From an uncultured Pirellulaceae bacterium (lineage in GTDB: Bacteria; Planctomycetota; Planctomycetia; Pirellulales; Pirellulaceae), in NCBI GenBank assembly GCA_934278005.1, contig CAKQWG010000001.1, positions 1-64,000 of the forward strand: a DNA stretch of 64,000 bases, given 5' to 3'. Positions 9,001 through 35,990 of this stretch are shown one piece after another; the stretch's first letter is position 1; each line of letters starts with the position of its first letter. A model generated the notes under the pieces. The model saw nothing but the letters and a program-made list of their open reading frames with translations, searched no databases and had not been told where the DNA came from. Made by a program: the position numbers and the translations under genes.

Positions 9001-12000
9001 ACGGCTGATTGTCCGGCGGCCAGGGTGATCAGTGGCGTGGCTGCGCTGGTCACGCCTTCGGCTCCGTCCAAGTCCAGATTGGTGAGCTTGTACTGCACTG
9101 TGGAACCGACCAGCAGCGAGCCGCCGGTAGTTGGCGTTTGCTGGATCAGGCTCACGTTCGGGGCTACCGATTCTTGCAGCGCGCCACCCGGGGTGCCGCG
9201 GATGATCAGGTTTTCGCCGATGAGGTAGGTGATGTCGGTGTCGTCCCAGCGGGCGGCCACATCCAGCGTGGTCAGCGGACCACCGGCGGCGGTGGAAGTT
9301 TTGACGAACAGGCCGTTGATCGAGTTGTTGAGCAAGACGTTGCCGCGGATATCTGGGCCGACGCGGGCATAGTCGGGTCGGAAGCTGCCGGCGAACTGGT
9401 AGCGAGGTTCGGAGAAGCGCGTCTCTTCAAAGCTGTTCGGATCGGCCGAGATGGCCGCATCGGCGCTGAAGCGGATGGTGTTGTTGAGCAGTGTGGGGCG
9501 GCTCTCGGTCATCTTGATCGGACTGACGGTCGGGCTGGGAGCGGAGACGGTGATTTGGCCACCACCGTAGCGAATATCCGCGTGCGACACGAAGTTCAGG
9601 AAGATGCCATTGCGTTCGTAGCTGCCAAAACCTTCGCGGCGGTCGATGTCTTCATGGAAGTCCAGCCCGCCCCAATCGCCCGGGCCGGGTGTGGTGCTGA
9701 GCGGGTTGGTGTCCTTGCCCTGGGTCTCGTCGCGATAGCTGGTGAAGTTGACGGATTGCTGCGGCGTGCCCAGCACTTGCAGAGCGGACAGGCTGTGGTC
9801 GATCGAGGCGTTGAGGCTGCCTGTAGCAATGCGCGAGCCCTGCAATTTGAAAATGGCACCGGCGTCGATCATCATCGTCACGCCGCGCGGCACCTCCAGA
9901 TTCAGACCATCGGAGAGGACTTGATTGCCCACGCCGCCGCGGCCAATTTCATAGGCGGGACGGTTGTTCGACGCGCCGGGACTGCCCAGCACGCGGACGA
10001 TGTCGCCTGGCAGCAACAAGCCGGCTGGCCATTTGCTCAAGTCCAGCGTGTTGAGCGGCTGAGTTGGCGAGCCGAGGGCGGGCCCGGTTTGCGAGCCACC
10101 AAAGCTCTTGTCGACGAAGATGGTCTTGGGTTGTCCAGCGGCTGCCACGCCCACGGGAGCGGCCGCGCGGAACCAAAAATTGAAATTGCCGCCAGCGATC
10201 CCGTCGCCGTCGCCGTCGATCGGTGTGCCGGCGGTGTCTTCGATCGTGAACTTGAGGGCCGCGACTGATACCGTGGGACGGAAGTCGAGTTTGAGCTGGT
10301 AGTTGCCCTGGCTGACCGCACCGCTGCCGGTGTTGGGCACGATCGGATCGAAATCCTCGTTCCCCTTGCCGGTCACGCTGATGAAATACGTTCCCTGCGT
10401 CAATTCGGCGGTCAAGAACGAATCGCTGCTGTGGCTGTCGTTGTTAGTTGAGATCAGTTCGACGCCGCCGTCCGCCTTCTGCTTCCAGAGCACCAGGACC
10501 GTGTCGAGGTTGCTGCTAGCGGGCAGTCGCTCAGCGATGGTTTCGGCCGTCAGTCGCCCGGCTTGTCCGGCGGGAACCACAAACGAGTAGGTGTCGACAT
10601 CGCGATTATCCGGGCGGTACAAATGCTGACCGTGCACGATATCCGCGTCGCCTGGGAAGGAGAACTCCGATGGCAGGCCGGGATTGGGATTGGCGAGCGC
10701 CCCTTCGGAGCCCATGATGCCGTTGGGGGGAAGATCGTAGGTGTGTCCTAGGCCTAGCAAGTGGCCGATCTCGTGCATGGCGGTGGTAAAAAAGCCAGCT
10801 CCGAAGCTGTTGTCCCACGGTTCGGCGCCGTCCATGATGGCCAAGCTGCCGCCGGCGATGCCTCCCACACCGCCCGGCCCACTCTGCTCACCCAACGGAT
10901 ACAGATCGCCGACGACGATCGTCAACCCGCCGTCGCGGGTTTCAACAAAGTCGACTCCCATGACCGAGGAGTAGATCTCGAAGATCTCGCGGACCCGCGC
11001 GACTTGGTCCGAGGTGATGGAAGTATTGACGGGGCGTCCAGCGGCGTCTAAGCCGTAGGGACGGTCGAAGGCGAAATTGAACGAAGCCTGAGCAATCCGC
11101 GGATCGCTGTCGGCGCCGCCGTTCAAGTGCGTTTCATCTTGGATGTCGCGGTGGCCAGGGTCGACCATGCTGCCGGGGAAATCCAGCGGCAGTACGTTGG
11201 CACTGGTGGTTATGATGCTCTGATTGACGACTGCTGTAAAAGCGCTGCTCCAGGTGCCAAGCGGCGTTGCATTTTGGATCGTGCCGGCCGGATCGCTCGG
11301 ACTTAGCGTAGCCACCGTCTGCGGATTGGTAGTTGAAACGACTGCGTCGCGCGAGCCAACTCGCAGGCGATAGGAGCCCGCTCCGGCCAATTGATCGATG
11401 GGACGGGAAAACGTCAGCTCGGCCATGTCGCTGGCTGGATCGTAGGAGATCGACGTGGGCGCGAAGACTTGGTCGTCGTTCGGCTGGACCGTTTCGGCCG
11501 TGTGGATCAACTGGTAGAAAGCCGGATCGACCACGGTTGGATTGGGTGATACGGCTCCAGTGATAACTGGCGCAGTATGCAGGTCGTCGTTGTTGAAATA
11601 GACGCGGATCACGTTGGGTCGCGGCGTGAGCACGCCCGCCACGCGGTCGACGGGCTGCGGCACAATGGCCACGATGGTAGCTCCCAGCTCCAGATCGAAA
11701 TCGACCGAGTCGCGGGTCAGGTCGTCCGGGGTGGCGTCGATGGCGCGGGTTTGCAGTTCGAGCCCCGCGGCGTTTTTGATAGCGGTCAGACCTTGGGCCG
11801 GAGCGTCCTTACCGATCAGGTCCACGCGATACAGATCGTCCTGCAGCGGCGAGGAGAAGCGGAGCACGACGATGCGATTGTTGTCGCCAAAGCCTAGATA
11901 GCCAGGCTGTATAACCGAGTCGTTGGCGTTGCCGAAAATGCCGTCGCCGCCGGCGCGGGTCACGCGAATTCCGGCAGTCAAACTGACCGGGTCCAGATCG

Positions 12001-12599
12001 CTCGAGCCGTCGAAGCGGAAGACCAATTCCGTGGGAGCTTCCGTCAAGCGATTGGTGTTGTTGAAGGTGAAGATGTCGCCCGAGTTGGGTGACACCGACA
12101 GCAGGCGCGGCCCGCCGGCTTCGCCCTCGGCGACTAGGCCCCCCTCACCCTCGGCGAATAGACTGGCCTCCCCCTCGGCAACTAGGCCCGCTTGACCTAC
12201 GCGGGGCAGTCCGGCGGACACGTTGGTAGCGGACTGTAGGCCTAAGCTGTGGCTCCAATCAGCGTAGCTTTGCTCGACCAGTGGGAACCAGGGCCGCGTG
12301 GTTAGGTCTCCGCTGGAACCTCCCAACTGGCTATCGAGGAAGTTGGCCACGTCGTAGTCCGCGGTGGCATCTGGGCTGAGCGAGTGGAAGGCTAGGGCAC
12401 TCTGAGCCTGAGCGTAGTGCTGCGCGTACTGCTGCGAGGAGATGTTGGCCGTGGCGGTGTAGTCGGTCAGGCCCAGCAGGTCGGCTGCGAGTAGTTCGCG
12501 TCGTTCGAGCGTCTCGAGCAATGTTCGCCGCAGCCGATTGCGTCGCAACTGGATTTCGTAGACGGACGAACTGGATCGACTGGCGAACTGGCTAGCCAT
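1..12599 (-). CDS. giant secreted multidomain protein with intact metzincin motif (3' end outside window)
   Basis: The frame stays open from an ATG at 12599-12597 to the window edge, giving at least 4199 codons with no stop. An AGAAGG ribosome-binding site sits 8 nt before the ATG. The N-terminus has a basic stretch and then LETLERRELLA, a variant of the LEPR-XLL motif of planctomycete envelope proteins. Reading on: a metzincin-type HEIGHLLGLGH with a downstream GIMG Met-turn (10743-10775), PPC-like stretches with DVDTYSF and DLDVYSF, beta-helix stretches (about 10100-8000 and 3300-2550), a propeller-like stretch with SPDGRLVA (about 6450-5380), a GEVEDY domain (about 1510-440) and the first cadherin-like repeat at the edge. 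It is a tandem paralogue of the 5725-aa protein upstream. Known families suggest an extracellular, surface-attached protein. Protease activity is inferred from the motif only. Confidence 0.9.
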   Translation of the reverse strand, partial: MASQFASRSSSSVYEIQLRRNRLRRTLLETLERRELLAADLLGLTDYTATANISSQQYAQHYAQAQSALAFHSLSPDATADYDVANFLDSQLGGSSGDLTTRPWFPLVEQSYADWSHSLGLQSATNVSAGLPRVGQAGLVAEGEASLFAEGEGGLVAEGEAGGPRLLSVSPNSGDIFTFNNTNRLTEAPTELVFRFDGSSDLDPVSLTAGIRVTRAGGDGIFGNANDSVIQPGYLGFGDNNRIVVLRFSSPLQDDLYRVDLIGKDAPAQGLTAIKNAAGLELQTRAIDATPDDLTRDSVDFDLELGATIVAIVPQPVDRVAGVLTPRPNVIRVYFNNDDLHTAPVITGAVSPNPTVVDPAFYQLIHTAETVQPNDDQVFAPTSISYDPASDMAELTFSRPIDQLAGAGSYRLRVGSRDAVVSTTNPQTVATLSPSDPAGTIQNATPLGTWSSAFTAVVNQSIITTSANVLPLDFPGSMVDPGHRDIQDETHLNGGADSDPRIAQASFNFAFDRPYGLDAAGRPVNTSITSDQVARVREIFEIYSSVMGVDFVETRDGGLTIVVGDLYPLGEQSGPGGVGGIAGGSLAIMDGAEPWDNSFGAGFFTTAMHEIGHLLGLGHTYDLPPNGIMGSEGALANPNPGLPSEFSFPGDADIVHGQHLYRPDNRDVDTYSFVVPAGQAGRLTAETIAERLPASSNLDTVLVLWKQKADGGVELISTNNDSHSSDSFLTAELTQGTYFISVTGKGNEDFDPIVPNTGSGAVSQGNYQLKLDFRPTVSVAALKFTIEDTAGTPIDGDGDGIAGGNFNFWFRAAAPVGVAAAGQPKTIFVDKSFGGSQTGPALGSPTQPLNTLDLSKWPAGLLLPGDIVRVLGSPGASNNRPAYEIGRGGVGNQVLSDGLNLEVPRGVTMMIDAGAIFKLQGSRIATGSLNASIDHSLSALQVLGTPQQSVNFTSYRDETQGKDTNPLSTTPGPGDWGGLDFHEDIDRREGFGSYERNGIFLNFVSHADIRYGGGQITVSAPSPTVSPIKMTESRPTLLNNTIRFSADAAISADPNSFEETRFSEPRYQFAGSFRPDYARVGPDIRGNVLLNNSINGLFVKTSTAAGGPLTTLDVAARWDDTDITYLIGENLIIRGTPGGALQESVAPNVSLIQQTPTTGGSLLVGSTVQYKLTNLDLDGAEGVTSAATPLITLAAGQSAVLLAGLPKASGDFVSRRLWRSLDGGPFQLVAQLDSGSTTYKDTGRTMAGTLPATTPGLVNRARTNARLQIDPGIIVKSIGARIEVGMGANLIAEGTADRPIVFTSRFDDRYGAGGTFDTNNDGAGSNPGAGDWGGLVTRPLATMSIDHALITFGGGVTSVAGGFAGFNAVEVQQADVRLANSRLEVNGSGQGGNVGGSRNGQGPNDASVVFVVGSQPVLINNVFMDNSVSNTAAISVNANAMKTSNVTDPGRQPGTADRSRVGIGNMGPLVRNNQLLGNGLNGMRIRGQTLSTETVWDDTDIVHILQSEIIVPDFHSEGGLRLQSRADESLVVKLGSGAGLTAMGRPLDIANRIGGTLQVIGAPGFPVVMTSIQDDTVGAGFDPNGRALVDTNNNGPSVGAPGDWRSIRFEPYANDRNVETLIELETDQLQDTGTNDVVGTAQNLGALAASLGGGDENLRLGFVVDGSIASPQDLDVYSFSAVAGTQVWLDIDRTSGSLDSVIELLDASGRILAQSNNSLAESMGAENRYINSSGPSPLPTDSVAGLEHSPFATRNTHATGVARDFYSVNPRDAGMRILLPGATGATNTYYVRVRSSNLAPADAPAKLQDPAAERSGLTTGNYRLQVRMQQTDEVPGSTVRYADIRFATNGIEARGMVASSPLLGQVAETGATTALGNIAASDRGSVTVSGFFDDDAIDVYSFTVSRGSVQVINPAEQRSHIGMAFDIDYADGFGRPDTSLWVFDSANRLVLVGTDSNIADDQAAPGRGANLDDLSRGSGGMRDPFIGASELPVGNYTVVVTNNSQTAVALNQFQQANPSNPLARLEPINSVQRISQDRFEGSTLGETSGSPVQVSFSSNVTDNLVQWTLADLTAYVVRSDGLLQLANPFTGAPEAYISDASSTNSLRDVAMSPDGRLVAAEASTGNQIDSTTGNLLLLNSTGTVDSATVPIGATVAGNSGLQTYTAQQTAFGATPAFAVQQRDHGNTQGNVPQGDGFVFNGLTFATADSSELKLFGVGSRANGALSFNLPTVDANGAVNGILTDGPTGPSVKVFNATNVVYRLDATSGAVVNPTGNADRTGNGLVGNHAGTQKVEYGRFLSGAVDDPDGPYTSGTVTGLAQIGNSLYAVSDQGEFYRVNIGNGNSAFSANETVGVGENRYRGTTALTVVEDDGAPVEFTGLTRGPRNLENGRYANMLFATTADGTLYAMNTDGALQPVFPGYSYKVHSADRGGLGPNVVGMDFSPLDVNLFHLTDLRDNEAGHGRPEPFDRSQNGERLGDRALYFGFQDSTGNQRQQGNWSGLYDVAAYNRTYNLPGGAHGATVSNPIDLRGYSADDLPTLYFNYFLDTENANSDLTQTGRMRDAFRVYGAGEDGQWILLATNNTASDQGLNRNNHTGNTNVDELDSYIYPTGHRGNFDAFGNPLLTQEAYDETGWRQIRTSLGAFAGQENVRLRFEFSTAASFQTGDALRGGVELIAVAGSKLQSGTGFTVTPLDGAAGAAQDFAFDMGLVLNLPAAADLTSDVSTLTINGVPIVFSNTNNTGNNVGYGLNDSPAAIAQRLAARLPAIFPGVVAPGDITFDPQRPSVLSIAGLPEGSATEYNLSPDLHPAVLNAFPQASSAVKIPVNKQMTATQVRDAVRAALADTFNNADNMAADPSGGLNVWKVTGDTLQLFKYDVSNNTSQMGLTTQRIGDFFGVNPTTRTGGQVSLAHMDERTQNNTGEGLYIDDIIIGFAERGEMVFSATADNTFAANRQYAKTLYDVDQPELGRYQLTVRTAADYGASDKVTGRLGLARQINTNDRLSQTVGILVRPTAAGSIPDGATFTLTDGRPPVTFEFDVYSGNNLPAVTAVTPGHVAISISAQATQQEIARAIRDTINSPTVQNLINVTASLQGEMSYGTVYGDAAPSGGTTIVLHGKVATDARGNFSFAANTFLSPVLWGTQTSFGEDAGDSQRSQPQGQLLLVGNTITNSQQFGIDVTAGNRDQTALSSTVGNRPYPGAPIAFPTANPSGLAPGVVIVSNIVASNVAGGIRLQGDAGSDAPAQIARVLNNTIYGLAGADNGILIENRATPTILNNIIARSGTGVRAPLGSSAVLGGNVYQGNTTNTVNVSVGSFAEILAAGAPLFVDVSNRRFYLAPGSRAIDSSIEALQERPALAQVKNGIGLPESPMLAPDLDVTGQRRVDDPSVNSPAGLGGNVFKDRGAVDRSDFLQLEAFILQPQDNDAALVDSDRNPTTIQLTQGTLEFFSILLQDNNGTGPDPASVVPAAISLTENGRLLTEGVDYVFGFNANSRTVRLTPQAGIWRTDSTYEITFNNLNRFNLTVGSGAEVADGDHFSVDYAGGTRVFEFDSDGSTSIANAAAVPFSAAMTHYEVVAQLRTALNSAGLGLKANILGDRNLALSGASLVSPTGASLTASPVKAITDLAGNLLNPNRANGQTQFTIVMPEATLDFGDADGINIPVLKAPNSAGVTNGNGPRHVLLPVDVPQLVLGTLVDADANGQPTAAADGDDTDLGATVALETLGSVGGIALGNVGPAVLSFANGATVAGQFFTIRDASVSPEASVTFEFGTSSDPLRVLIPTLLTDTADQVAARVATAVQSVLFERRLSGLTPVAIGSRVSLGGTADQSIDLAGAAGVARLPSGNAQLVVPAVLTGLADGQTMTITDAAGSSVQFELNNIDPTAPHTPVAAGRVAINVDLATATATGVATAIADAINAQVDGRKLRLGHAAAAVNATGGAHLSVIGDDEDGVRFGGIFDAGSADAVPITVIASGAGLLDAWIDWNNDGDFDDPGENLFATSQPVVGGENVFMIDTPATVTTGFAAARFRVSLQGGLAPGGLAIGGEVEDYLVAVLEGLPPDPVNAPPEFTIKSNLLASSYAEDQAAVTINDFIVDARPGPLTKPGELLDQTVRVHSVTSSAGAFEQLAITLDPITGKGSLTFKTSPDANSASHDLTVVVTLKDGDELTEPDVRFTSKTFTITVDPVNDAPDFSLPT
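10743..10775 (-). other. metzincin zinc-binding motif HEIGHLLGLGH
   Basis: The minus-strand codons read H-E-I-G-H-L-L-G-L-G-H, a full HExxHxxGxxH motif with three zinc-ligand histidines and the general-base glutamate. A GIMG Met-turn candidate follows about ten residues later. This is the only intact protease motif I see in the two giant genes. Confidence 0.85.
12120..12195. repeat. short tandem repeat coding Gly-Leu-Val-Ala-Glu-Gly-Glu units
   Basis: About three imperfect 24-27 bp units lie inside the giant gene near residues 135-160. They encode GLVAEGEA, SLFAEGEG and GLVAEGEA. The repeat keeps the frame and lies just before the first globular region, so it reads as a flexible acidic spacer. 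Confidence 0.65.
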
Positions 12600-12785
12600 A
12601 GGACTTACCTTCTTTGAACGATATAAAAAAATTCGAGCGGGGTGTCATTGTGACAAATGCGGGACTTATGTCACGTAGTGGACTTTGCCAAAAAACTTCG
12701 GTTCTCGCGCGTGGTCGATTTTGCCAAAGTACTGCAGACAAACTCTCCCCAAAACCCTCGGCGAACGCACGAGGGGCTTGATCGG

Positions 12786-12810
12786 GCAGGATCCTGTGAA
12801 GAGATCCTGC
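12786..12810 (-). terminator. hairpin between the two giant genes
   Basis: GCAGGATC and GATCCTGC form a perfect 8-bp inverted repeat around a 9-nt loop, 56 nt past the stop codon of the 5725-aa gene. No T-run follows on the minus strand, so a simple intrinsic terminator is uncertain. It could instead be an mRNA-end stabiliser or an intercistronic processing site. A smaller hairpin (GTGGA-TTT-TCCAC on the minus strand) lies closer to the stop. Confidence 0.4.
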
Positions 12811-12865
12811 GCGGGTTGAGGTGCTGTGGGACCTGTGGAAAATCCACGATGGGTGCGAGGGATTT

Positions 12866-15800
12866 TTAGTCGTGGGCAGCGCCAAGGTCAGCCAGGAGGC
12901 TGGCCAGGGCGATGTCGATCAGGTGGTTGGAATCTTCGACTCGGGCGCGCTGGGTGACCCAACTGACGTCCACACTCTCGGTGCGGCTGTCGGCGACTTG
13001 TGCGAAGATCGATGGACTGGGCTCAGGTGCCACGCGCGTCTGTCCAGCGAACTGCGTAGTTGGCTGTGTGACTGGCTGCGCGGCTAGCTGTGTGACTGAC
13101 TGCGCGGTTGCCTGCGGTGCAGGTGCTGAGATCAGTGGCAGGCTCGCGGGCACTGCCGCGGACATCACCAACTGAGGTTCGAAGGCAGCCAGGGAAGTGG
13201 CCGCTTCGCCCTCGCCTTGACCCTCACCGCCGCCGCTGCGGCGCGCGTGGCTGGTATTGGCATTGAGGTAGTTGATGACTTGCAACACGTCATTGGGGGT
13301 GATTAGATTATTGCCGTCGGTATCGACGTAGGGCGGCGGCGGTGGCAAGCTGGAGGTGGGAATAGTTCCACCGCCACCGCCGACGGCGCGTTCGTTGATG
13401 AGGTTGATAATCAGCAGCGCGTCGATGGGGGAGATGAATCCGTCTGCATTGACATCCAACGAGTTGTCTGCATTCTGATGCGATGGCGGCGGTGGGTTGT
13501 CGATATTGATCGTCACCGTAGTAACCACGCTCAGGCCATTACCGTCGCTGGCGCGATAGGTAAAGCTGTCGGTCGTCTTGCCCTTCTCGAAGTTGTGCTG
13601 GTAGGTAAATGTTCCGTCGGCATTCAGTGAGAACTGGGCTGCGTTGACGGGACCGGTGACGAGCACCGCGGTGAGCGGCATGCCTTCGGGATCGATGTCA
13701 TTGGCGAGCACGCCATCGTTGGCGGGATTGCCGTCGGTGCCGCGCGGATCGGTGGTGATCAGCGCTTGACCCTGCTTGACGCGGTAGGTGTCGGGCTGGG
13801 TGATCGGCACATCGTCGATTTCGACGACGGTCAGTCGGAACTGAGAGATGACCGTCTGGCCGCTGCGGTCTTTGGCTGCCACGCGAATGTCGGCGAAGCC
13901 GGAGCGATTGGGCGCCAGAACCAGTCGCAGCTCATTGCCGCTGATGGTCGAGCTGACCAGCAGCGAGTTGGTGTTGCCGACGACTTCGAAGCTTAACACG
14001 TCGCCATTGGTGGCCACGTCGGGATCAATGAAGTGGTTCGGCGTGAGCACGATGGGCGCGATCACCGAGTTTTCATTGACGGTGCGATCCGGCAGAGGAG
14101 TAGCGATGCGCGGCGCGTCATCGACGGCGGTCACGACGAGTGTGAGCGTGTCGCGGACGCTTAGGCCCGTGCTATCGGTAGCTTGCACGACGATTGTAGC
14201 GCTGCCGTGTTGGTCTGGTTTGAGGGTCAGTACCAAGCGGCCGGCATTGATGGTGGCGGTGACCAAGCCCGGGTTGCTGTTGCCAGCGGCGGGCAGGCTG
14301 TAGGTCAAGCTATCGCCGCTATCGGGATCGAAGAACACCGTCGACAGATCGATCTGCTGGGGCGATGCATCTTCGGCCATGGTGACGGTCCCCAGGGCTG
14401 TCCCCACGCGTGGCGCGTCGGGTCGGCCAGCGACAGTCACGGTGACTGTGCCGGTCGAGGTCTGCGGATCGGCAACGCCGGCGCTGGTGCCATTGTCCTG
14501 CACTTGATAGAAGAACGTGTCGACCCCTTCGAAATCGGGTGCGGGCGTATAGGTCGCTACGCCGCCGATAAAGGTGACCGTGCCGCCGTGGGTGCTGGTT
14601 GGCGTGACACCGATAACCGTCAGGCTCTGTCCCGACTCGTCGCTAGGTCCAGGTGTGTCGCCCGCTTTCAACTCGGCAGCCGTCATGGTTGCTGGAGTGT
14701 CCTCGACGGCCACGATATTTTTAGCGACGGTGACCGGCGGATTGTTCTTGTCGGCAATCTGCAGCGTTACGGTGCCGACAGCGCCGAGCGGCGTTATGAC
14801 TCCCGCCGTCGTGCCGTTGTCGGTCACGGTGTAGGTAAAGCTGTCGCTGCCGCTGTAGCTGGCTGGCGGCACATACTGGATGCGTCCACCGACGAGCGTT
14901 ACCGTGCCGCCACGCAGGCTGGTGGCTGAGACAGCGGTGATCGTCAACGTTTGATCCGCTTCGTTAGCCGGGCCGGCCGCATCGTTGCTCAGCAGTACCG
15001 ACTGGTCGATACTCAGCGTCTCGTTCTCATTGAGCGCGAGAGAGTCTGGTGCAGCGATGGGAGCATCGTTGACCTCTCGGACGGTGAGCGTCACCGTGCC
15101 GAGGTTGTTGGATCCCAGCACGCCATCGTTGACGCGATACACGAACGTGTCTTGGCCATTGAAGTTGGCCAGTGGGCGATAGGAGAAGGTTCCGTCGGCG
15201 TTGAGCTGGAAGCTGCCGGGCTGTGCCGAAGTGGGACCGGTGACCAGCGTCACGCTGAGCGGTTTGCCGTCGGGGCTGACATCGTTCGCTGCCACGCCGT
15301 CATCGATTTTGAAGCCGGGCGTAGTCGTGCCGGTGGCATCGGTGGTCTGGAACGGCAGCAACGGATCTTCGTTGAGCTCGTAGGTATCGTTGACTGCGGT
15401 GGGTGGCGTGCCGGGGACGATGGTCACCGCGTAGTCTTCCACTTCGCCGTCGACCGCTAGGCCGGTGGTGGTCAGCCCGCCGCTGCTGCTGGAGCGGAAG
15501 CGAGCGAAGGTGCGCGTGTTGGTCGTCGCATCGGGCGCGGTGGCTGGGACTGTGACGTAAAAGGTTTGCGTCAAACTGCTAGCCGTGAAGTTGGCCGATG
15601 AGAGGATTTGTTCGCCTGGATCGTCCCAGTCGCCATCCGCATTGAAGTCGATCCAAGCATCCACGAAGCCGGGGCTGGAAAGGGTGACTTCGATTGGTGT
15701 CAGGGCAAATTTATTGAACGCACCGGGCGTGGCCAGAATCGATCCAAAGACCACACCGTCATCGCCGCTGTCTCCGTCGGCCAACGGGGTAGGCTGCCCA

Positions 15801-24800: not shown

Positions 24801-27800
24801 CCAAAGGTGGCTTCGATGCGCGAAGCTTCCAACTTCAGAATGGCTCCCGGATCGATTACCAGCGAAGCATTCACGCGTGGGCGTTTGACGCCTAGAGTCT
24901 CCGCAGCCAAGGCTTGCCCCGGTGCGTTGCCGACGTCGGTAAAGCTCTGCACGCCGGCGCTATCGGTATTGCTCAATTCACCTACCAGCGCGTAGGGGGA
25001 GGATCCATCGTCGCTGCTGCGGTAAATGCGGCGACTGACATAGCCATCGAGCGTCAGCGGTAGATTCGATAGCTGAATCGATCCGGTTGCGGCCAGCGTA
25101 ACGAGAGGAGTAGCATTGGAAGCCAAGCCCTCGCGGCCGCCAGCATCGACCATCACGACGCGATAGGTGTACTTGCCGGCCGCCAGCGTGCCGGTAGGTA
25201 GGGCCGTCGACGTTACGGCCGACACGTCGGCGCGGTCGCGGGCCAGCGTTCCGCCGGGCGTCTTGCCAATATCCAAGTACGTGGATGTGGTGCGGTCGAG
25301 CGATGAGACCAAGACATACGGCCCGGCCCCGTTGGCTTGACTGCGGTACAGCTTGCGCTCGACAAAATCGCCGCTGGCGCTGGGCAGTCCAGCGATAGAC
25401 ACAGCGGTCTGACCGGCGACTAAGTGGATCGTGGCGGATGCGTCCGACGGGGCGCTTTCATAGCCATTGCGATCGATGTAGGTGACTTTGTAATTGTAGT
25501 CGCCGGGCTGTAGCTTGCCGCCCACATTGGGTCCCAAGGAGACCAACCCCACAGGCGGCGTCGTGCTATCGATCAAGGCACCGCCGGCGGCGCCATTGAC
25601 GACTAGATTGTCGGTCAGCACGTGCACGATGTCGATGTCATCGAATCGCGCGGGGACGCTCAATCCGTTAGGACCTACGCTGATAAATAGTCCGTTGAGC
25701 GAGTTGTTCGTGAGCGTGTTGCGACGGATCTCTGGCCCGACCCGATCGTAGTCGCTGGTGAAGGCGCCGCTGAGTTGAAAACGCGGCTCGTTGAAGTTGG
25801 TCTCTTCAAAGCTGTTCGGCGCGGCACTCATGGCCGCACTGCTGCTGCGCGAAATAATGTTATCGGTAATCGTCGGGCGCACATCGATCATCTGGATGGG
25901 ATAGACCGTCTGCGTATTGGAGTCCAGCGTTACGGAACCGCCGCCGTAGCGAATGTCCGCATGGTTGATGTACTGTAGGAAAATGCCCTGGCTCTCCAGA
26001 TTATGCCGACCGCTAGAGGCATCGACGTCGTGGCGAAAGGAGATCCCGCCCCAGTTTCCAGCGGCTGGAGTGGTCGTAGGCGTATAGGTATCGAAGCCGA
26101 TCGATTCGTCCAACCACGAAGTAAAGTAGACTCGGCCCGCGGCGAGCGAGCCATCGCTTTTACGCAGTGCGTTGCCGCTGGAGTCGAGCAGCACGGGCGC
26201 ACCTAGGACTTGCAAAGCTCCGCCGGACCGGTCGATATTCAGATTGGAGCTGCCGACGCCGATGCGAGCACCACGCAGTTTAAAGACTGCGCCGGCATCG
26301 ATCATAGTGGTCACCCCCTTGGGGACTTCCATGGTGGCTCCGTCGGACAAGATGGAGCCGGGCAGCAGGCCCGTACCGATCTCGTAGGCAAAGTTATCGG
26401 CTTCGGTAGCCAGACTTCCATCTGCTCCGCCATTGCCTACGATGCGGACGATGTCGCCGGGGAAGGTGGAGGAGAAGGCGTTCGGCACCCCGCTGCCGGC
26501 GATGTTGTTAAAAGGTTTGGTCAAACTGCCATCGGCGTTGGGGCCGGCCGATTTGTCGACGAAGATGGTCTTGCCGCCCACGTCGATAAGTTTGAGCTGT
26601 GGATCAAGGGCTATGGTGCGTTCGCCGCTGAGCGTAACGCGGACGCCGTTGGCCACGGCACCCACTCCAAGATTTCCGCGCGAGGTGATGGCACTGGCCA
26701 AGGCGTTGGCCAAATCACCAGCGGTACTGGCCGCCGTGTAGGGAACTCGCACCCGTCCAGCAGCGATGTTGGCGTCGCTGCTGAATTCAAAGACTTGGAT
26801 CGTTCCAGAAGCACCGGTGACGCTCACGGTGCGGCCTTCTAAATCACTGCTGGCTCCAGCGTTGAAATCAAGCGTGCGCTGTAGCGGCCGCGTCTGGAAC
26901 CAGAAATTATAGGTTCCACCGGCCAGTCCATCGCTGTCGCCGTCAAAGCCCACAGACATCGCCCCTGGCTCGGCACCCAGCGCATCCTGAATCGTCTGCG
27001 AGGCGTCAACGGCCGCGCGGAAGGTCAGGCGCAAGTCGTAGTTGCCTTCCGACTGGCCGCCAAAGCCGGTCCCTTCGCTCGACGCATTGTAGTTGGCATT
27101 GCCACTGGCGCTGACGCCCAAGTAGTACACGCCCGAACCCAAGGCATGAGTGATTAGCGAATCGCGGCCGAAATAATCGTTGTTCTGCGCTATCAATCGC
27201 ATGCCACCGCCGACGAGCGTGACGGGATTTTGCGAAAGCAGATTGTTGCCAACTTTCGTAGTGGCGCTACCTGTGACCAAGCTGACTCGCACCAGCGAGC
27301 TGGCGGCGACCGAGTTGCGAATGGCGTCTAAAATATCTTGGACCGTGCTCTCGGAACCGGCGGTGGAATTGAGGTCGATGCTGAGCGCGTTGGGATAAGC
27401 CAAAATGGTTGGCTTACTGGCGTTGCCACGATCGGTTTGCGTGAAATGGATCTGCAGCTGATTGCCCTGAGCGCCCGAGCGGACGGCTTCGAACCGCAGC
27501 GACAGCGGCACGCTGGATCCCAAGGTGGTGGTGACCGAGGCCTGCTGCTGCTGGAACAGCTGCAGTTGCGTGTTGAGCGAGCTGCTGTTGCTCAGTCGCT
27601 GCGCGTAGGTCTCGGCAGTCATAATACCGACGCGATCGCCGGCCCCGAAGTCGACTTCGAACCGGTACAAGTCGATGTCTGATCCGTCTGGACGGTACAG
27701 ATGGCGCGCGTGCAGAATGTCCTGATTGCCTGGCACGATCGGTTCGTACTTTTCGTCGCTGGCGTCGAGCTGATTGTCGTTGACATCGATCAGTGGTCCG

Positions 27801-30043
27801 GAGCCCGCTAAGAACGTTGGGTCCAGGCGCATGAGCGTCGTCTCGGGAAGATCGCCGGCGTGCTCTAGTCCCAGAGCGATGCCCACGGCCGCGGCCAGAT
27901 TGCGAGTGAAGCTGGCCCCGTACTCGAGCCCCCAGTCGAATGTTGCCGACAGTAGGATCAGCGGATTCTGGAAGGTTGGGTCGACGGCCACGCCGAATCG
28001 GCCCTCGGATCTAAAGGTTGTTCCGGCGGGAATCTGCAGGCCCGTGACCGGTCCGGCGGCAATGGTCAAACCCAGATCGGATGTCTCAACAAACTGCACG
28101 CCAATGTACTTGGACCACAGCGAGAGAACTTCGCGAGCACGCGTTTTCTGCTGCTCACTGATCGAATTGCCCAACGCATCCCCCACGTTGGTCTGACCGT
28201 AGACCGATTGGAAGTTGTAGTAGATGGTGCTGATGCCATCGACCGCATCGGGGCCAAAGGCCGGGTTGACGTGATCTTCAAAGCCACCTTGCAGGTTCTG
28301 CACGAGTTGACGGTGACCGGGATCGTCGCTGGCCCCTGGCAGGTCAAGCGCGAAGGACTGAGGATCGATGGCCGACGAGAGAATTAGGCTGGTGGTGCTT
28401 TGCGCGGCCGATCCGATCACTCCCAGATTCGACGCCGTGTCAAACGAACTGCCCAGTCCAACCAGGGTCACAGGCGAGAAGGCCAAATTGGTATTGCCTA
28501 CGACCGTGGATCCCAGGCTGCCAGGTTCTAGCTCGGCGCTGAACAGATTCGAGGCGGCGGCCGAACCGCGCAGCAGCGCCACTAGTTCATCGGCGGTGAG
28601 GTTGTCGCGGCCCATGTCGACCGTAACGACTCTGCCGACGGCTGTGACCAACGGCGTGCCGCTGCGGGAATTGGTGAAGTTAACTTGGATTCCACCGGCC
28701 GACTCACCTACTTCACGTGAGGTCAGACGCAGCTTGACCGCGCCGGCCGTGTTGAGGTCGGTGATTACATTAGCGGTTCCCTCGCTGCGAGTCGGCGCGG
28801 CGGGGGTGGTTTCACGAGTTCCAATCCGCAGCCGATATGTGGCTGGTCCGGCTGCGCGGCCGGGCAGTTCGTTGAGATCGCCGGCGAATTTAAGCGTGGC
28901 TGTATTGGTAGCCGCGTTGTATTTGACGGATGTCGGCAGGAAGGTGACATCGTCGGTGTTGCGGACGGTGTCGTGCGTGAAGATCAACTGGTAGAAGCCT
29001 GGATTCTCGACCGACCGCGACGTGGGTTTTCCATCCGCGCCGTTTTCTACCAGCAGCTTATCGTTATCGAAGTGGACGATGATCGTGTCGCGTTGTTGCT
29101 GCAGTCCAGCGCCCACGCGGACGACGGGCTGCGGCACGACTGCAGTGACTTGTGGTCCCAGGTCGAGGCGGAAGTCGACGGTGTCCTTGCGTGTTCCAGC
29201 CACCGAGGGAACGAACAACTCGCCACCGGCCGCGGCAGTGTTGCGGAGGCCTACAACGCCAGCTGTCGGATCGTCAAAGCCGAAGATCTCGATGCGATAA
29301 TTGTCGTCTTTGAGCGTCTCAGCAAAGCGGAAGGTAACTTCGTTCTCATCGGGGCTTTGCCCAACGAGAACGGCGCCGGGCTTGACCACGCGGTCATTGT
29401 TTTGATTGACGGCGATGGGCGCGTAGCTACTGACCGAAGCGGTACCGAGCTTGGCTGTTCCCAAGCCGCCGTTGAGCTGTGCGGTGAGCTTGCCAGCTAA
29501 TGCCGACGAACCGTTAATGGCGGAGATGAGCGAATTGGCGGTAGTGCCACCGGCAGGGTTGGTATTGAGCGTGATGGAGATGGTCGAGCCCGTGATGGCG
29601 ATAGCCGGAGGAGCGGCCGGGGCTAGTGAAGCGGTGGTGACCTGTACCGTCCAGCTCTGCCCAGGAATGGCTGCGGTGAGCTGAATGTTGGCTCCGCCGT
29701 TGCTGCCAAAATCGCTCTGGGCCGTGTTTTTGCCAAAGCTGCCGTCGCCGCCAGCGCTGGTGATGCGAATCCCACCGAGCGTGGCTGGATCGATGGTTTG
29801 CGAGTCATCGAAGCGGAATACCAGCTCGTTGGGCGCCTGCATTCGCACGTCGCCGTTGGCCAGCAGATCGCTACTGTTGGGCTGAATACCAATCAATTGC
29901 GGTCCCACCGCCAAGAGCTGCCGCTGTTCGAGTTGCTCGAGCAACATATGCCGCAGCCGGGCTTTGGCTTTGCGACGACCACGACCCGCGTCTGCTTGTT
30001 TGGAACGGCTGGAAGATGCTGATTGTGTATTGCGGACGGCCAT
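12866..30043 (-). CDS. giant secreted multidomain protein with dockerin, degenerate metzincin region
   Basis: This is one unbroken 5725-codon frame. The N-terminus is Arg/Lys-rich and carries LEQLEQRQLLA (about residues 35-46), an LEPR-XLL-type envelope motif. In order: a region matching the paralogue's metzincin but with ligands lost (about residue 718), beta-helix stretches after IFVDKS (about 1150-2050), PPC-like domains (DIDVYSF, DVDFYML, DVDIFQF), further beta-helix-like stretches, about six roughly 100-aa repeats (nt 17900-16060), a GEVEDY domain (about 4700-4870), cadherin-like tandem repeats (about 4870-5500) and a two-EF-hand dockerin type I (DVNADGFIS and DTDGNNLIT, about 5525-5600). 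The last 120 residues are low-complexity, Gln/Thr/Ala-rich. The only two cysteines I see form a CTNC pair. The likely role is an extracellular adhesin or scaffold; the ligand is unknown. Confidence 0.93.
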   Translation of the reverse strand: MAVRNTQSASSSRSKQADAGRGRRKAKARLRHMLLEQLEQRQLLAVGPQLIGIQPNSSDLLANGDVRMQAPNELVFRFDDSQTIDPATLGGIRITSAGGDGSFGKNTAQSDFGSNGGANIQLTAAIPGQSWTVQVTTASLAPAAPPAIAITGSTISITLNTNPAGGTTANSLISAINGSSALAGKLTAQLNGGLGTAKLGTASVSSYAPIAVNQNNDRVVKPGAVLVGQSPDENEVTFRFAETLKDDNYRIEIFGFDDPTAGVVGLRNTAAAGGELFVPSVAGTRKDTVDFRLDLGPQVTAVVPQPVVRVGAGLQQQRDTIIVHFDNDKLLVENGADGKPTSRSVENPGFYQLIFTHDTVRNTDDVTFLPTSVKYNAATNTATLKFAGDLNELPGRAAGPATYRLRIGTRETTPAAPTRSEGTANVITDLNTAGAVKLRLTSREVGESAGGIQVNFTNSRSGTPLVTAVGRVVTVDMGRDNLTADELVALLRGSAAASNLFSAELEPGSLGSTVVGNTNLAFSPVTLVGLGSSFDTASNLGVIGSAAQSTTSLILSSAIDPQSFALDLPGASDDPGHRQLVQNLQGGFEDHVNPAFGPDAVDGISTIYYNFQSVYGQTNVGDALGNSISEQQKTRAREVLSLWSKYIGVQFVETSDLGLTIAAGPVTGLQIPAGTTFRSEGRFGVAVDPTFQNPLILLSATFDWGLEYGASFTRNLAAAVGIALGLEHAGDLPETTLMRLDPTFLAGSGPLIDVNDNQLDASDEKYEPIVPGNQDILHARHLYRPDGSDIDLYRFEVDFGAGDRVGIMTAETYAQRLSNSSSLNTQLQLFQQQQASVTTTLGSSVPLSLRFEAVRSGAQGNQLQIHFTQTDRGNASKPTILAYPNALSIDLNSTAGSESTVQDILDAIRNSVAASSLVRVSLVTGSATTKVGNNLLSQNPVTLVGGGMRLIAQNNDYFGRDSLITHALGSGVYYLGVSASGNANYNASSEGTGFGGQSEGNYDLRLTFRAAVDASQTIQDALGAEPGAMSVGFDGDSDGLAGGTYNFWFQTRPLQRTLDFNAGASSDLEGRTVSVTGASGTIQVFEFSSDANIAAGRVRVPYTAASTAGDLANALASAITSRGNLGVGAVANGVRVTLSGERTIALDPQLKLIDVGGKTIFVDKSAGPNADGSLTKPFNNIAGSGVPNAFSSTFPGDIVRIVGNGGADGSLATEADNFAYEIGTGLLPGSILSDGATMEVPKGVTTMIDAGAVFKLRGARIGVGSSNLNIDRSGGALQVLGAPVLLDSSGNALRKSDGSLAAGRVYFTSWLDESIGFDTYTPTTTPAAGNWGGISFRHDVDASSGRHNLESQGIFLQYINHADIRYGGGSVTLDSNTQTVYPIQMIDVRPTITDNIISRSSSAAMSAAPNSFEETNFNEPRFQLSGAFTSDYDRVGPEIRRNTLTNNSLNGLFISVGPNGLSVPARFDDIDIVHVLTDNLVVNGAAGGALIDSTTPPVGLVSLGPNVGGKLQPGDYNYKVTYIDRNGYESAPSDASATIHLVAGQTAVSIAGLPSASGDFVERKLYRSQANGAGPYVLVSSLDRTTSTYLDIGKTPGGTLARDRADVSAVTSTALPTGTLAAGKYTYRVVMVDAGGREGLASNATPLVTLAATGSIQLSNLPLTLDGYVSRRIYRSSDDGSSPYALVGELSNTDSAGVQSFTDVGNAPGQALAAETLGVKRPRVNASLVIDPGAILKLEASRIEATFGANIIAEGIDGKPIVFTSKLDDTVGAGGTFDTNNNGTATGPAPRDWGGIYVGPTSSLSVDYARFAYGGGVTRLDSTFRAFNTIEINQADARIAHTLFENNADGFGGQGPGTRLGRLSNEPSTIFVRGSQPTLIDNTFRGNTGSAITIDANSMTAELKSDPGRQTGDADRSPNYLANRGPLIRENRFVNNGLNGLKIRGDTLTTASVWDDTDIVHVVYTEIFTGNVQHEGGLRLQSAPNESLVVKFDGYGSNFNRNMGAGLTANGQLTSASDRIGGTLHILGQPGFPVILTSLFDDTVGAGLRPDGQPQNDTNNDGIGSIPQAGDWRGILLDQYSNDRNVGIVLETESFTAAAPGPNGKVTTAQVLGTLASSRDTGDESRRLGFVVEGVLSQNEDIDVYSFTGTAGTEVWFDIDYTQHNLDLVLELLSPDGDLLARSVNSTDEAVDPSLLFVSPLIPASSVNPLATRTVGARTTSSGAIKEDGTTNPRDPGFRMRLPGSPGNTSTFFIRVRSASTNADDAGAGLTSGAYQLQVRLREAQEWAGSSVNFADVRYAMNGVHLRGLPGESPLIGEAAEDESVRNGRIYANNGVATGGGITSGNFGGGGFLGNARVGNQLGNRPQYVGNLLETAKGAISVAGTISSNSDVDFYMLEISQKDIVGSMNGGHASVVFDMDYADGLNRPDTSLNIFREVFSPLFGTQYQLVYSSDGSNIADDQGRPLTISDVQDLSRGSMGTKDPFIGPIALPEGNYLVGVSSAGYQPRTRLINPSSTAPIASIRRIADINYVPGVTGATPPEVANFLPRRTVGATGELVSETFDLGRYSAEDLPAIYLDYTRPGAASMELFVRDANGTEFAIASSSDPSLARLAAGSGSIKLSLAGITAQPNGAPLLSSKSFAGQDGLTLIVRSNDPATRVNGLIIGFAERGESVGVSPEPILLSNGFISTPSGDPATFPPGSIAETRTFSLVTYDSFIDRPQIAFDYEVFNGQMDVWLIDDLSGAQRWLATTVAQNRPTGVTLLATGSPKSQVLDISGFSGRSDLRVEFRARNDNPSRSSIQNVVIQLADGSRVGSGEYNSTYVNVPVPSTTVTTGKYQLEIRMGDEFFQSQRFGSPVLTKSFDTNDRLANQISLVAPAGSLLTSGDKFSVSDGGRSITFEFTTSGLVGLGNVPVRFAATDPAHVVAQAIRDAINSNGVQSQLQGSIRAATSSGIVSGTAGRDPQINLHGSAYFKSLLAANPDGAVELVLHQGQSDTNARREQGQVLIQNSFIRQPRDYGVWSEPAARQADPRDELDSFTRSQMQEVPNLVGTQAVRNLSTLNDGVQGGMLPGLVIQNNVLEEGGLGGIKLQGETPMWMISPRLIPYFEPGTDPAGFLWDGNPLVNTSGGNPPISHFGSYLDDQDTLVLDADRTRLRLEFDDLAGGGTGNPVGGSGQVEGNGVRPDSSIAWYRDTGGDFYQRITCTNCTPFATTAFETMHALRDSLLSSILVSNGTTQQINVTIAASLLGPDPVAPEDSSFGYPLYFNRPAVYIEGATQLQWQDGPVGNGNPFDIRQLDLGEAPQPQAKIVNNTIIGTDGRASFNGEAAVNEPNDTLASAVQTWQGTAHNPLEYTSTGFIGDAVTGQPGSDVDIFQFKLGVGERVIVDVNSPADSSLDAVLQIFDSRGIAQTFTNAAGESRTISDNDPAPGEASSFDPYADFTATASGVYYAAISSVGNINYDPLSYANRQIGSSTGAYSVSVSARHLQNFVITAEDASAYAGGETFTIYGVPDIGSTASSGRTFEFVLGGGGASNGNIPININADWRFPDVARAIAKAINEGGAGGGRAIPNTQTLPNGVFGTASPLPPVHAKAIGGLSAVLDAPFNSIQGDKETILLQLSAVDELGSNQLSRSQIEQQIFGPYYEVNQGLELFPRRNDGQINSNNGNITSLSNLGLGHDRRSTTPLSPTSRGDGTSERFVLVNNAAWIDGNGAIIVDPDQNGPTNLDQLLPETGVLASRGASPTVLNNVFFNLQTPVINEESRRNLNTNAASPYGSPNPNVVTKPGEVVLGGSIYQYYETASSNSRFTTGVETSPTNVPNTSLDQNIDVPGNVRLFVNAQAGQYLPAPGSPLIDSAINKLDERPSLVAIKNSLGMPVSNVQAPDFDLVGQLRADDPSVSPPGGTGQNIFKDRGALERADFVGPAAILLEPVDNDALGIDGDGSVSVVQLNSGVYPQFRIQLADGNEPSNPLQGIGIDDNTVVSSVIAEQRLSGAAIVVFENGRVLREGIDYSFAYNATRDEIILTPLAGVWKNGKVYELSINNRDRFVISAPSGDQIADGDGFSITDENGGVVNYEFDSGYRLQVPQGLTLQIPLAGGAFGGIVDGERFSLTIGSTTTTFEFDRNNNVLAGNLPIAYQLGATQHELQNAMVAAINAAGLSGITPTVLAPGEIFIGAESGVQLNTSNSTLAQPNGTLALRIPANGPRGGVLDGHTFTLSDGRQTRTFEYDTDGTVASANLAIDFSQAFTAADIATLTQAAIADSSLNFNPTVIGGTLIHLGMGPSGSASIDNSQLTLVGVSRTLADGERFTITGNGKTATFEITRDATVGAGNIPIAVSPNDTQSVTADRIVAAIIAADLGLTPQAVGPGNIAIGGTAANTVDVATAPGLTLFGKPGVESQTRLQVFGPLVLQLPAISALADNSSILLQGNGKTVVFEFDSNGSGPSGLSNVVVAFSALSSPNDVALALAAAINGAGLDITATNMGNGKVSLGRIKANQVLVGTSGLTATAGVVSDGEIFTISNGQRSVTFEFNNVDLNNGFDPANTQIQFSNTTTPATLIDSMKAAIEAAGLGLTTTVMANATLQLNDTPRFITNVSGAPTLALSGLPGGANAVKFVQDPSFTDVDVKRAIIQAINTSSNTTLTASDRGSDTLFVSGATVISPEINSYFLRGVSDLAGNLLKPNQINNETKFTILMPGVELDYGDAPDPLGSIHGRYATLHANDGARHVVGNVALLGSSISADADGQPTPLADGDSGDDGVVFGSILATPGAFNKFALTPIEVTLSSPGFVDAWIDFNADGDWDDPGEQILSSANFTASSLTQTFYVTVPATAPDATTNTRTFARFRSSSSGGLTTTGLAVDGEVEDYAVTIVPGTPPTAVNDTYELNEDPLLPFQTTDATGTTTPGFKIDDGVAANDVSPDGKPLSVTLVTGPTSAQPGSFQLNADGTFSYRPLANFNGQDTFVYRVNDGVLGSNNLGTVTLTVREVNDAPIAAPDSLALNENETLSIDQSVLLSNDAAGPANEADQTLTITAVSATSLRGGTVTLVGGRIQYVPPASYSGSDSFTYTVTDNGTTAGVITPLGAVGTVTLQIADKNNPPVTVAKNIVAVEDTPATMTAAELKAGDTPGPSDESGQSLTVIGVTPTSTHGGTVTFIGGVATYTPAPDFEGVDTFFYQVQDNGTSAGVADPQTSTGTVTVTVAGRPDAPRVGTALGTVTMAEDASPQQIDLSTVFFDPDSGDSLTYSLPAAGNSNPGLVTATINAGRLVLTLKPDQHGSATIVVQATDSTGLSVRDTLTLVVTAVDDAPRIATPLPDRTVNENSVIAPIVLTPNHFIDPDVATNGDVLSFEVVGNTNSLLVSSTISGNELRLVLAPNRSGFADIRVAAKDRSGQTVISQFRLTVVEIDDVPITQPDTYRVKQGQALITTDPRGTDGNPANDGVLANDIDPEGMPLTAVLVTGPVNAAQFSLNADGTFTYQHNFEKGKTTDSFTYRASDGNGLSVVTTVTINIDNPPPPSHQNADNSLDVNADGFISPIDALLIINLINERAVGGGGGTIPTSSLPPPPPYVDTDGNNLITPNDVLQVINYLNANTSHARRSGGGEGQGEGEAATSLAAFEPQLVMSAAVPASLPLISAPAPQATAQSVTQLAAQPVTQPTTQFAGQTRVAPEPSPSIFAQVADSRTESVDVSWVTQRARVEDSNHLIDIALASLLADLGAAHD
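13270..13480 (-). other. dockerin type I domain (paired EF-hand-like loops)
   Basis: The minus strand encodes DVNADGFISPIDALLIIN and, after a Gly/Pro-rich linker, DTDGNNLITPNDVLQVIN. These are two calcium-loop-plus-helix repeats typical of dockerins. The linker between them is longer than in clostridial dockerins, as is common in planctomycete proteins. No cohesin is visible in the window, so the partner is unknown. Confidence 0.85.
16060..17900 (-). repeat. array of about six divergent ~100-aa protein repeats in the giant protein
   Basis: The units share a pattern: DGxxFxxxxGxxxxTFEF, a GN-hydrophobic strand, a helix containing AINxAGL, then a short strand such as GNIAIGG. Examples begin DGERFSLTIG, DGHTFTLSDG, DGERFTITGN and DGEIFTISNG. 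The paralogue has a single unit at the equivalent place. I do not recognise a named domain. Confidence 0.7.
27860..27892 (-). other. degenerate metzincin motif (AAVGIALGLEH)
   Basis: Aligned on the flanking VETxxxGLTI, the following DLP and the later RHLYRPD, these codons take the place of HEIGHLLGLGH in the neighbouring paralogue. The first histidine is Ala, the glutamate is Ala and the second histidine is Ile; only the last histidine remains. This copy should not bind catalytic zinc in the usual way. Confidence 0.8.
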
Positions 30044-30102: not shown

Positions 30103-30730
30103 CCAACGCGTAACAGGCGTCGAATTGCGGTTTAAAAAAACAGGACCACGAATCTTGGTGGATATAATAACTCAGACGAGCTGTTGTGGGTCGGGAATAC
30201 CGCGTAAACGTTTTATCCCGGCCCAAAAGCACGTAATTGACGATTATAGTTGCAGCGAGTTTACTTGCAAATTTTGGGTAGTGAGGTATGCGCGCAGACG
30301 ATGCCCCGGTGACAGCGGCTTTGATTATCCCATTAGGAGGGCGAGGTTGGGCAGAATTGCACGCCGGATTCGCTCCGGAGCCAATCGTTTTCGCCGGGCA
30401 CAGCACCCGTCGTCGGGATTTAGATACGGCTAGCTCTTGGAAGTTCCATCCATCCAGCCAGTTGGTCGTTTTTTTGGCAGTGGCCTAGTAGGGCAGCGAT
30501 TGAGCCTAGTATTGCTGCGCTGGGCTGCACATTTAGCTAAACGCTAAGAGCAAGTGCGGGGCAGCGCGCGGGGCTCCGTGTAGCGCTGCGACGTGTCGTA
30601 ACTTTAGTGGTAGCTCGACTAGGTGGCATGACACACGCTAAGAGCAAGTATGGGGCAGCGCGACGGCTCCGTGTAGTGCTGCGACTTGTCGTAGCTTTGT
30701 CGGTGGCTGGACCGTACGGGAATTGCTGGG

Positions 30731-30975
30731 CAGCGCTCTGCATAGCGCGAGCCGTCGCCTGCGCAAGCCGCAACTGTCGAACTAGTCGGCGCTGTGGTGC
30801 AATACAGCCGCGTGCGTTGGCCCAGTTGACGTGTGCATCTGCGGCTTGCTGCGGCTCGGCGTTAAACAGATTCGCTACGCGTTGACTGTGTAGGCGAGCG
30901 CAGAATGCTTGACGCTATGGCGCTTTTGTGGGCCGCGATGCGGCTCCTTGTAGTGCTGCGACTTGTCGTAGCTTT
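30731..30975 (+). repeat. 245-bp direct repeat, copy A
   Basis: This block recurs at 31026-31270, offset by 295 bp, with only about four mismatches. Its right end coincides with a 33-bp palindromic element. Frames open across both copies give near-identical short peptides with no recognisable domain, and I do not treat them as genes. Confidence 0.85.
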
Positions 30976-31025
30976 TGTGGCCGCGCGACTCTACGTTTTG
31001 CCAAACGGTCCGAAGTATTGCTGTG

Positions 31026-31270
31026 CAGCGCTCTGCATAGCGCGAGCCGTCGCCTGCGCAAGCCGCAACTGTCGAACTAGTCGGCGCTGTGGTGCAATAC
31101 AGCCGCGTGCGTTGGCCCAGTTGACGTGTGCATCTGCGGCTTGCTGCGGCTCGGCGTTAAACAAATTCGCTGCGCGTTGACTGTGTAGGCGAGCGCAGAA
31201 TGATTGACGCTATGGCGCTTTTGTGGGCCGCGATGGGGCTCCTTGTAGTGCTGCGACTTGTCGTAGCTTT
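31026..31270 (+). repeat. 245-bp direct repeat, copy B
   Basis: This is the second copy of the block at 30731-30975. The 50-bp spacer between the copies is unique. The near identity points to a recent duplication, perhaps by recombination between the short palindromic elements at the block ends. Confidence 0.85.
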
Positions 31271-31779
31271 ATCGGTGGCTGGACCGTACGGGAAGTCACA
31301 CGCTAAGAGCAGATACGGGGCAGCGCGACGGCTCCTTGTAGTGCTGCGACTTGTCGTAGCTTTGTCGATGGCTGAACCGAACGGGACGTCACACGTTGAG
31401 AAGGTCTCTCGGGCCGCGTATAAGCCTCCGCCTGTGTTCGCGCTGCGCGGCAAATGTGGTGAAGAGTTTAAACTTGCGTAGTTGGCTCGTAAAGCGGATT
31501 GTTCGCGGCCCGGAATATCCGCTTTCCGTTTAGTATGGGATCGGTAGTGCGAGCACTAAAGCTACGACAAGTCGCAGCACTACAAGGAGCTCATTCGCGG
31601 CCGGGAAGTTTTCTTCGGCGTTTGATGGTGCGTGGGATTACGCGAACTCTAAAGCTACGACGAGTCGCAGCACTGCAAGGAGCCGCTGCGCTGCCTGGAA
31701 AACGTTCACGGCGCAGCCATGTAACCAGACGCGTTAGCCGGTACGCGGCGGTGCTGCGATGCGGTGGTGTAAGAACGTT

Positions 31780-35825: not shown

Positions 35826-35990
35826 GTTAACCGAGGCTAACGCCCTGCGGCTGATTCAGCCGCGGGGGTAGTTAACCCGGGCTAACGCCCTGCGGCTGAT
35901 TCAGCTGCGGGGGTAACCGGGGCGAACGCCGTGCGGCTGATTCGGCTGCGGGGGTAGTTAACCGGGGCTAACGCCGTGCGGCTGATCAAG
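35826..35990. repeat. four tandem ~45-bp GC-rich repeats
   Basis: The units start at 35826, 35871, 35913 and 35958. They share GTTAACCGGGGCTAACGCC followed by GTGCGGCTGATTC and GCTGCGGGGGTA. The last copy is truncated. CAGCCGC and GCGGCTG within a unit pair, so each can fold as a hairpin. The array sits between two co-oriented genes and probably separates their transcripts. Confidence 0.85.

Follow-up and report, generated by a model that had tools for sequence, protein, structure and literature searches.

A probably inactive metzincin domain beside an intact-site sibling in tandem giant genes of an uncultured Pirellulaceae bacterium

The 64,000-nucleotide stretch analyzed here (the window; positions 1 to 64,000 of contig CAKQWG010000001.1, assembly GCA_934278005.1, from an uncultured Pirellulaceae bacterium) carries in its left part two giant open reading frames, both on the minus strand. 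The upstream frame, UP (12866..30043), encodes 5725 amino acids (aa); the other, DOWN (3..12599), lies immediately downstream and is cut by the window edge, such that it is known as the 4199 aa inside the window (at least 4199 aa in all), with its C-terminal part lying outside. Each encodes a metzincin-type domain, which has an intact zinc site in DOWN and has lost it in UP. Our preferred reading, to which we assign a probability of roughly 0.6, is that the UP domain is a fixed binding or structural pseudoprotease module beside a protease-competent sibling, in a family whose proteolytic capacity is modular.

The metzincin domain of DOWN (10596..11222, minus strand, about residues 460-668) contains HEIGHLLGLGH (10743..10775, minus strand, residues 609-619), which is the only HExxH in the protein within the window and fits the consensus HExxHxxGxxH; a Met-turn, GIMG, follows shortly after the third histidine. 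At the corresponding place in UP (domain at 27674..28366, minus strand, about residues 560-790), the active-site helix reads AAVGIALGLEH (27860..27892, minus strand, residues 718-728). Here two zinc histidines and the catalytic glutamate are replaced, while the third zinc histidine and the methionine of the Met-turn are retained, and neither HExxH nor HxxxH occurs anywhere in the 5725 aa. The original prediction had placed both motifs at exactly these positions and had described the same residue losses; the second intact HExxH that it named as a potential contradiction is absent from UP. The flanking similarity it quoted is real, except that RHLYRPD belongs to UP only, DOWN having QHLYRPD. A profile comparison of 50 UP-type against 30 DOWN-type domains fixes the register of the two motifs (hhalign; probability 100, E 5.7e-77) and rules out misalignment as the cause of the apparent loss.

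Pfam assigns Matrixin (PF00413) to DOWN barely over threshold (24.2 bits, cut-off 24.0) and gives no PF00413 match in UP at E 0.1. Despite this lack of a match, the predicted fold of the UP domain resembles that of matrixins among the candidate structures proposed by Foldseek, and DOWN is predicted to adopt a metzincin, M10-like fold (mean predicted local distance difference test scores of 73.8 and 76.3 for the two single-domain models). On its zinc motif, Met-turn and predicted fold, DOWN would be a metzincin/matrixin (M10) with predicted proteolytic activity. Sequence, predicted fold and age all give good support to the assignment of the UP domain as a pseudoprotease, and the domain is presumably non-catalytic.

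The two proteins align in a largely colinear manner by BLASTP, with 32% identity over 292 columns across the metzincin region and 48% over 454 columns further on; together with the motifs, this supports the proposal of tandem paralogues, one with an intact and one with a dead metzincin site. Both giants are probably secreted or exposed at the surface and descended from a common ancestor that bore a metzincin. UP also has extra stretches of ~90-120 aa between the parts shared with DOWN (window 29399-29728, 28439-28810 and 27209-27568), which look like a repeated nested module. The gap that separates the genes (12600..12865, minus strand, 266 bp) holds one promoter-like consensus match (12674-12647, minus strand) and no terminator-like site, and the pair may be co-expressed.

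From its export-like N-terminus, UP runs through the dead metzincin, PPC-like and beta-helix-like parts, and cadherin, Big_9 and GEVED repeats to a dockerin near the C-terminus. The families above Pfam cut-off are Big_9, Cadherin_4, Cadherin_5, GEVED and Dockerin_1 (PF00404, PF17963, PF17892 and PF17803 among them), which place a dockerin and cadherin/Big repeats C-terminally; the dockerin type I region lies at 13262..13456 (minus strand; PF00404, 37.8 bits, cut-off 22.9). PPC falls below the Pfam cut-off in UP, as does a planctomycete extracellular-type motif at its N-terminus (29900..29953, minus strand; PF07595, 18.0 bits, cut-off 25.5). DOWN combines its live-type metzincin with PPC and GEVED; the dockerin/cadherin comparison applies to UP, the corresponding part of DOWN being outside the window. 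UP is probably a secreted dockerin/cadherin giant.

To date the loss, we used the best 120 of the 253 proteins found with UP as query and the best 120 of the 441 found with DOWN. In a FastTree phylogeny of 242 sequences, which included the two window copies and from which the motif columns had been removed, 117 UP-type sequences cluster together (support 99), and every one of them is dead, meaning that its zinc site is lost. This result rules out both recent decay and the sequencing error that intact relatives of UP would have implied. Sequences outside the group are mostly live, with scattered losses; counted by query, 119 of 121 UP-query sequences are dead and 2 live, as against 111 live and 10 dead among 121 for DOWN. 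A second tree, built from 82 sequences of which 80 come from genome loci, again unites its 25 UP rows (99 in the Shimodaira-Hasegawa-like approximate likelihood ratio test) and contains two further dead groups: MID, with the motif RGIGxLLGIGx (9 MID rows and one stand-alone sequence), and a stand-alone group of 8 rows with QGIGQLLGLGQ or FGVGQLLGYGY. The MID members (L114, L123, L124, L127, L130-L134) follow UP in some genomes and stand between UP and DOWN in others; the stand-alone group comprises L135-L140, L045 and L047. Two middle members of triples, L128 and L129, are dead, yet are placed elsewhere on this tree, and the DOWN rows fall into two main groups with weak deep forks. Both trees were drawn from the midpoint. 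An intact motif is the ancestral state of metzincins, and the direction of change is therefore loss rather than gain. The best explanation of these sequence data is a single, ancient loss of the zinc site in the UP lineage, with retention of the fold and much of the sequence.

The tandem arrangement recurs across Pirellulales, as the original prediction had anticipated. A contig scan of genomes gave 48 loci, and in all eight of the genomes taken from these (G001-G008) UP is followed by a same-strand paralogue. Of 296 genomes sampled from the order, 130 match the DOWN domain, and 32 with several matches were examined: three have no UP-level match (G031, G152, G241), in four UP is cut by a contig end (G121, G156, G160, G244), and a partner is present in 23 of the remaining 25 (G129 among them), with none found within 3.4 to 8 kb beyond UP in G137 and G259. 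Overall, tandem order holds in 31 of 33 genomes. Picking genomes for several matches could have biased this count; when the same 296 were searched with UP, however, 34 matched at E 1e-60, and only two of these lay outside the examined set: G215, whose UP lies at the end of a contig, and G271, a borderline case. UP is dead in 31 of 31 clusters, and 23 of them hold a live copy of the corresponding site. Five are dead-dead-live triples (G005, G172, G211, G223, G238), with open frames of 6297, 7634 and 6907 codons in G238. As for the clusters that hold no live corresponding site, the downstream giant of G002 and G253 has an extra N-terminal HExxHxxGxxH; in G004, G265 and G298 a live paralogue is located elsewhere or on a separate contig; and G008, G203 and G262 yielded no live metzincin of the family. 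Of these last three, G203 and G262 encode a subtilisin within UP, and G008 does not.

How strongly the dead domain is constrained was assessed in 19 genomes that have both domains, the window included. Over all 171 pairs, identity is greater for UP than for DOWN in 119 (means 49.2% versus 44.1%), but two DOWN lineages are pooled in this figure. Taken separately, the lineage with 12 genomes has UP ahead in 19 of 66 pairs (means 51.1% for UP and 53.8% for DOWN), and the lineage with 5 genomes in 5 of 10; when the window is compared with the others, UP leads in 9 of 18. The claim that UP is more conserved than DOWN was consequently dropped; by sequence it appears nearly as conserved as the live copy, not more so. 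With 85% identity as the criterion in 25 UP rows and 26 rows of live DOWN, the two sets share 29 conserved columns; 36 more are conserved only in UP and 17 only in DOWN, and 1 is conserved in each with a different residue. The 36-to-17 contrast is inflated by lineage mixing, the DOWN rows being the more diverse set. The 17 DOWN-only columns include H609, E610, H613 and H619. The helix glycines G721 and G725 persist in MID and in the stand-alone group, with L128, L129 and L057 excluded. The catalytic residues thus appear to have been released, and the fold much less so.

Other catalytic modules come and go in the family. A subtilisin (S8) cassette of ~440 aa sits in frame at one loop in 27 UP relatives, at a site that is empty in the window UP (19934..19957, minus strand, about residues 3363-3370). 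S8 occurs at other positions in three more UP-query proteins, in the live DOWN-type P0132, which has an intact metzincin motif, and, as a distant match, in the dead DOWN-type P0205; P0038, a UP-type protein whose contig equals that of P0132 in length (53290), lacks it. Asp, His and Ser motifs were found by pattern in 30 of the 32 S8-bearing sequences (exceptions P0113 and P0205), and the presence of PF22148 in many listed records is the basis for reading a prodomain into the cassette. While the window site is empty, its sister P0002 (85% identical overall, and the closest relative with the cassette) and further neighbors have S8, and nine changes are needed to account for presence and absence on the tree (49 of the 121 UP-query sequences used). 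This on/off history suggests that protease activity is added to, or removed from, the giant scaffold as a unit. A second, N-terminal metzincin (HEAGHGIGLGH...KLMEP) occurs in 29 of the 121 sequences obtained with DOWN and in three obtained with UP (P0071, P0079, P0103). Intact DOWN-type examples include P0124-P0127, P0129, P0149, P0217, L156 and L159; other extra matches occur in P0087, P0089, P0114 and P0120. The window UP has neither module in its 5725 aa. Compensation by the N-terminal metzincin for a dead second domain finds no support (4 of 10 dead versus 25 of 111 live DOWN-query sequences, Fisher p 0.25).

In the reading that we prefer, the UP lineage would have lost its zinc site from a shared metzincin-bearing ancestor and kept the fold, leaving what is most likely a binding or structural module, perhaps for a ligand or peptide, near the N-terminus of a dockerin/cadherin-type protein. 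DOWN, made beside it, would keep the protease site, and in related species proteolysis would be supplied as a subtilisin cassette in UP-type proteins or as an extra N-terminal metzincin in the siblings. Several points weigh against this account. The structure models are of single domains and of middling overall confidence; within one DOWN lineage no more than 19 of 66 pairs, and in the window comparisons 9 of 18, show UP as the more identical copy, and the column contrast is inflated as noted; and against the nearest genome dN (nonsynonymous divergence) is 0.114 for UP and 0.171 for DOWN, but dS (synonymous divergence) is saturated (2.15) or undefined, so that no reliable dN/dS results. Architecture alone would account for a retained fold just as well as binding would. 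That the domain is instead a decaying relic without function, as the missing and variable catalytic residues might suggest, is the least probable of all the alternatives, since, for all the age of the loss, conservation in the remainder of the domain comes close to that of the live copy. Some other catalytic or metal-binding chemistry is very improbable too: the third histidine is kept in the window copy, and H591, D775 and H778 are conserved in UP, but these last three positions are equally conserved in live DOWN, and the third histidine is present in just 24% of 25 sampled UP rows.

The original prediction suggested a division of labor between protease and dead protease, such as a scaffold or decoy next to an active enzyme, or one giant processing the other. 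The pair itself stands, but the division of labor is one possibility only, and a simple scheme of one live and one dead copy is too narrow, because two more dead groups exist, because no neighbor keeps the corresponding site in eight of 31 clusters, because the live partners downstream belong to more than one tree lineage, and because relatives' giants often carry another protease module (the subtilisin cassette or the N-terminal metzincin). By analogy with some eukaryotic pseudoproteases, the dead domain might bind DOWN or its substrates and regulate, present or restrain the live sibling. Tandem order in 31 of 33 genomes and a live corresponding site in 23 of 31 clusters, with an N-terminal site in the downstream giant of two more, speak for such a partnership, yet duplication and shared regulation can alone yield tandem order; since eight clusters break the simple arrangement (three with the live paralogue elsewhere, three with none found) and the live partners fall into two separate tree groups, we regard it as possible but rather unlikely. 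We entertain just as tentatively a broader picture, in which Pirellulales keep a two- or three-gene surface-giant locus whose metzincin, obligately dead, acts in trans alongside a protease-competent sibling (perhaps as a subunit for targeting, substrate presentation or restraint), with catalytic modules (metzincin, subtilisin cassette, second N-terminal metzincin) swapped between siblings and the dead scaffold always kept. It is a little less likely that UP-type proteins replaced the metzincin with subtilisin and that the window copy, now purely structural, then lost S8 too. The cassette at one loop in 27 relatives and elsewhere in three, its largely intact catalytic motifs, the nesting of the empty window copy among S8-bearing P0002, P0003, P0004 and P0010, and the S8 in the UP of G203 and G262, two genomes that look much alike, all fit this sequence of events; however, 87 of the 117 UP-group members, deep branches included, show no S8, and loss of the metzincin site therefore probably came first. 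Independent gains are also too few for statistics, and the live DOWN relative P0132 has S8 as well. Processing of UP by DOWN or another protease, with the dead site keeping UP from cutting itself, is decidedly unlikely; it would fit the adjacent encoding of live and dead metzincins but leaves the stand-alone dead group unexplained.

Beyond the pair, direct repeats lie 5' of UP (30519-31386), consisting of a 295-bp unit present twice (91% over its length), a 152-bp unit present twice (85%) and a weaker 50-bp unit present four times; Rfam at gathering threshold gives no match in the window, these repeats included. The gene upstream of UP (31780-32835) encodes a Ysc84-domain protein (PF04366, 109.7 bits), and a 45-bp tandem array of ~3.7 copies occupies 35826-35986.

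Searches of the open-licence PubMed Central (PMC) literature found no description of dead/live metzincin pairing in giants. Papers there that join pseudoprotease and metzincin concern, by title, ADAM17, cancer, infection and one general review, and none joins Planctomycet, pseudoenzyme and metalloprotease, or Pirellula, giant genes and metalloprotease. Pseudoproteases have mostly been studied in animals; the present set is bacterial, has live sister paralogues besides at least three dead groups, and occurs in part in cultured species. It permits the direct question of why a protease fold is kept once cutting stops, and gives a starting point for functional work on the giant proteins of planctomycetes, abundant as they are and mostly unexplained.

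Among known systems, the predicted fold of both domains is like that of matrixins and serralysins (M10), bacterial karilysin included, and DOWN shares their HExxHxxGxxH and Met-turn; unlike them, UP lacks two zinc histidines and the glutamate, and both domains sit within giants of more than 4000 aa. Single dead ADAMs are familiar in animals, and carboxypeptidase D, with its inactive third domain, is another case. UP and DOWN differ from these in being bacterial, much larger, encoded in tandem and joined to other domain partners. Inactive animal metallopeptidase homologues are described as keeping the fold without catalytic residues alongside active relatives (PMC11266112). Closer to our system, huge planctomycete proteins with Dockerin_1, Big_9 and Cadherin domains have been surveyed (PMC11573180); they show the same domain set as UP, and the main text of the survey contains neither 'matrixin' nor 'metallop-'. 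In Stieleria varia, the consecutive giants Pla52n_17480, 17490 and 17500 (6271, 7630 and 6858 aa), the last annotated Matrixin, are listed singly with adhesion or glycosyl-hydrolase roles, and paralogy and dead protease sites go unmentioned in the part of that paper that presents them (PMC7717043). A Stieleria varia protein of 6858 aa (P0234) is a match of our DOWN query, and the sizes and annotation of the three giants would fit a dead-dead-live triple such as that of G238.
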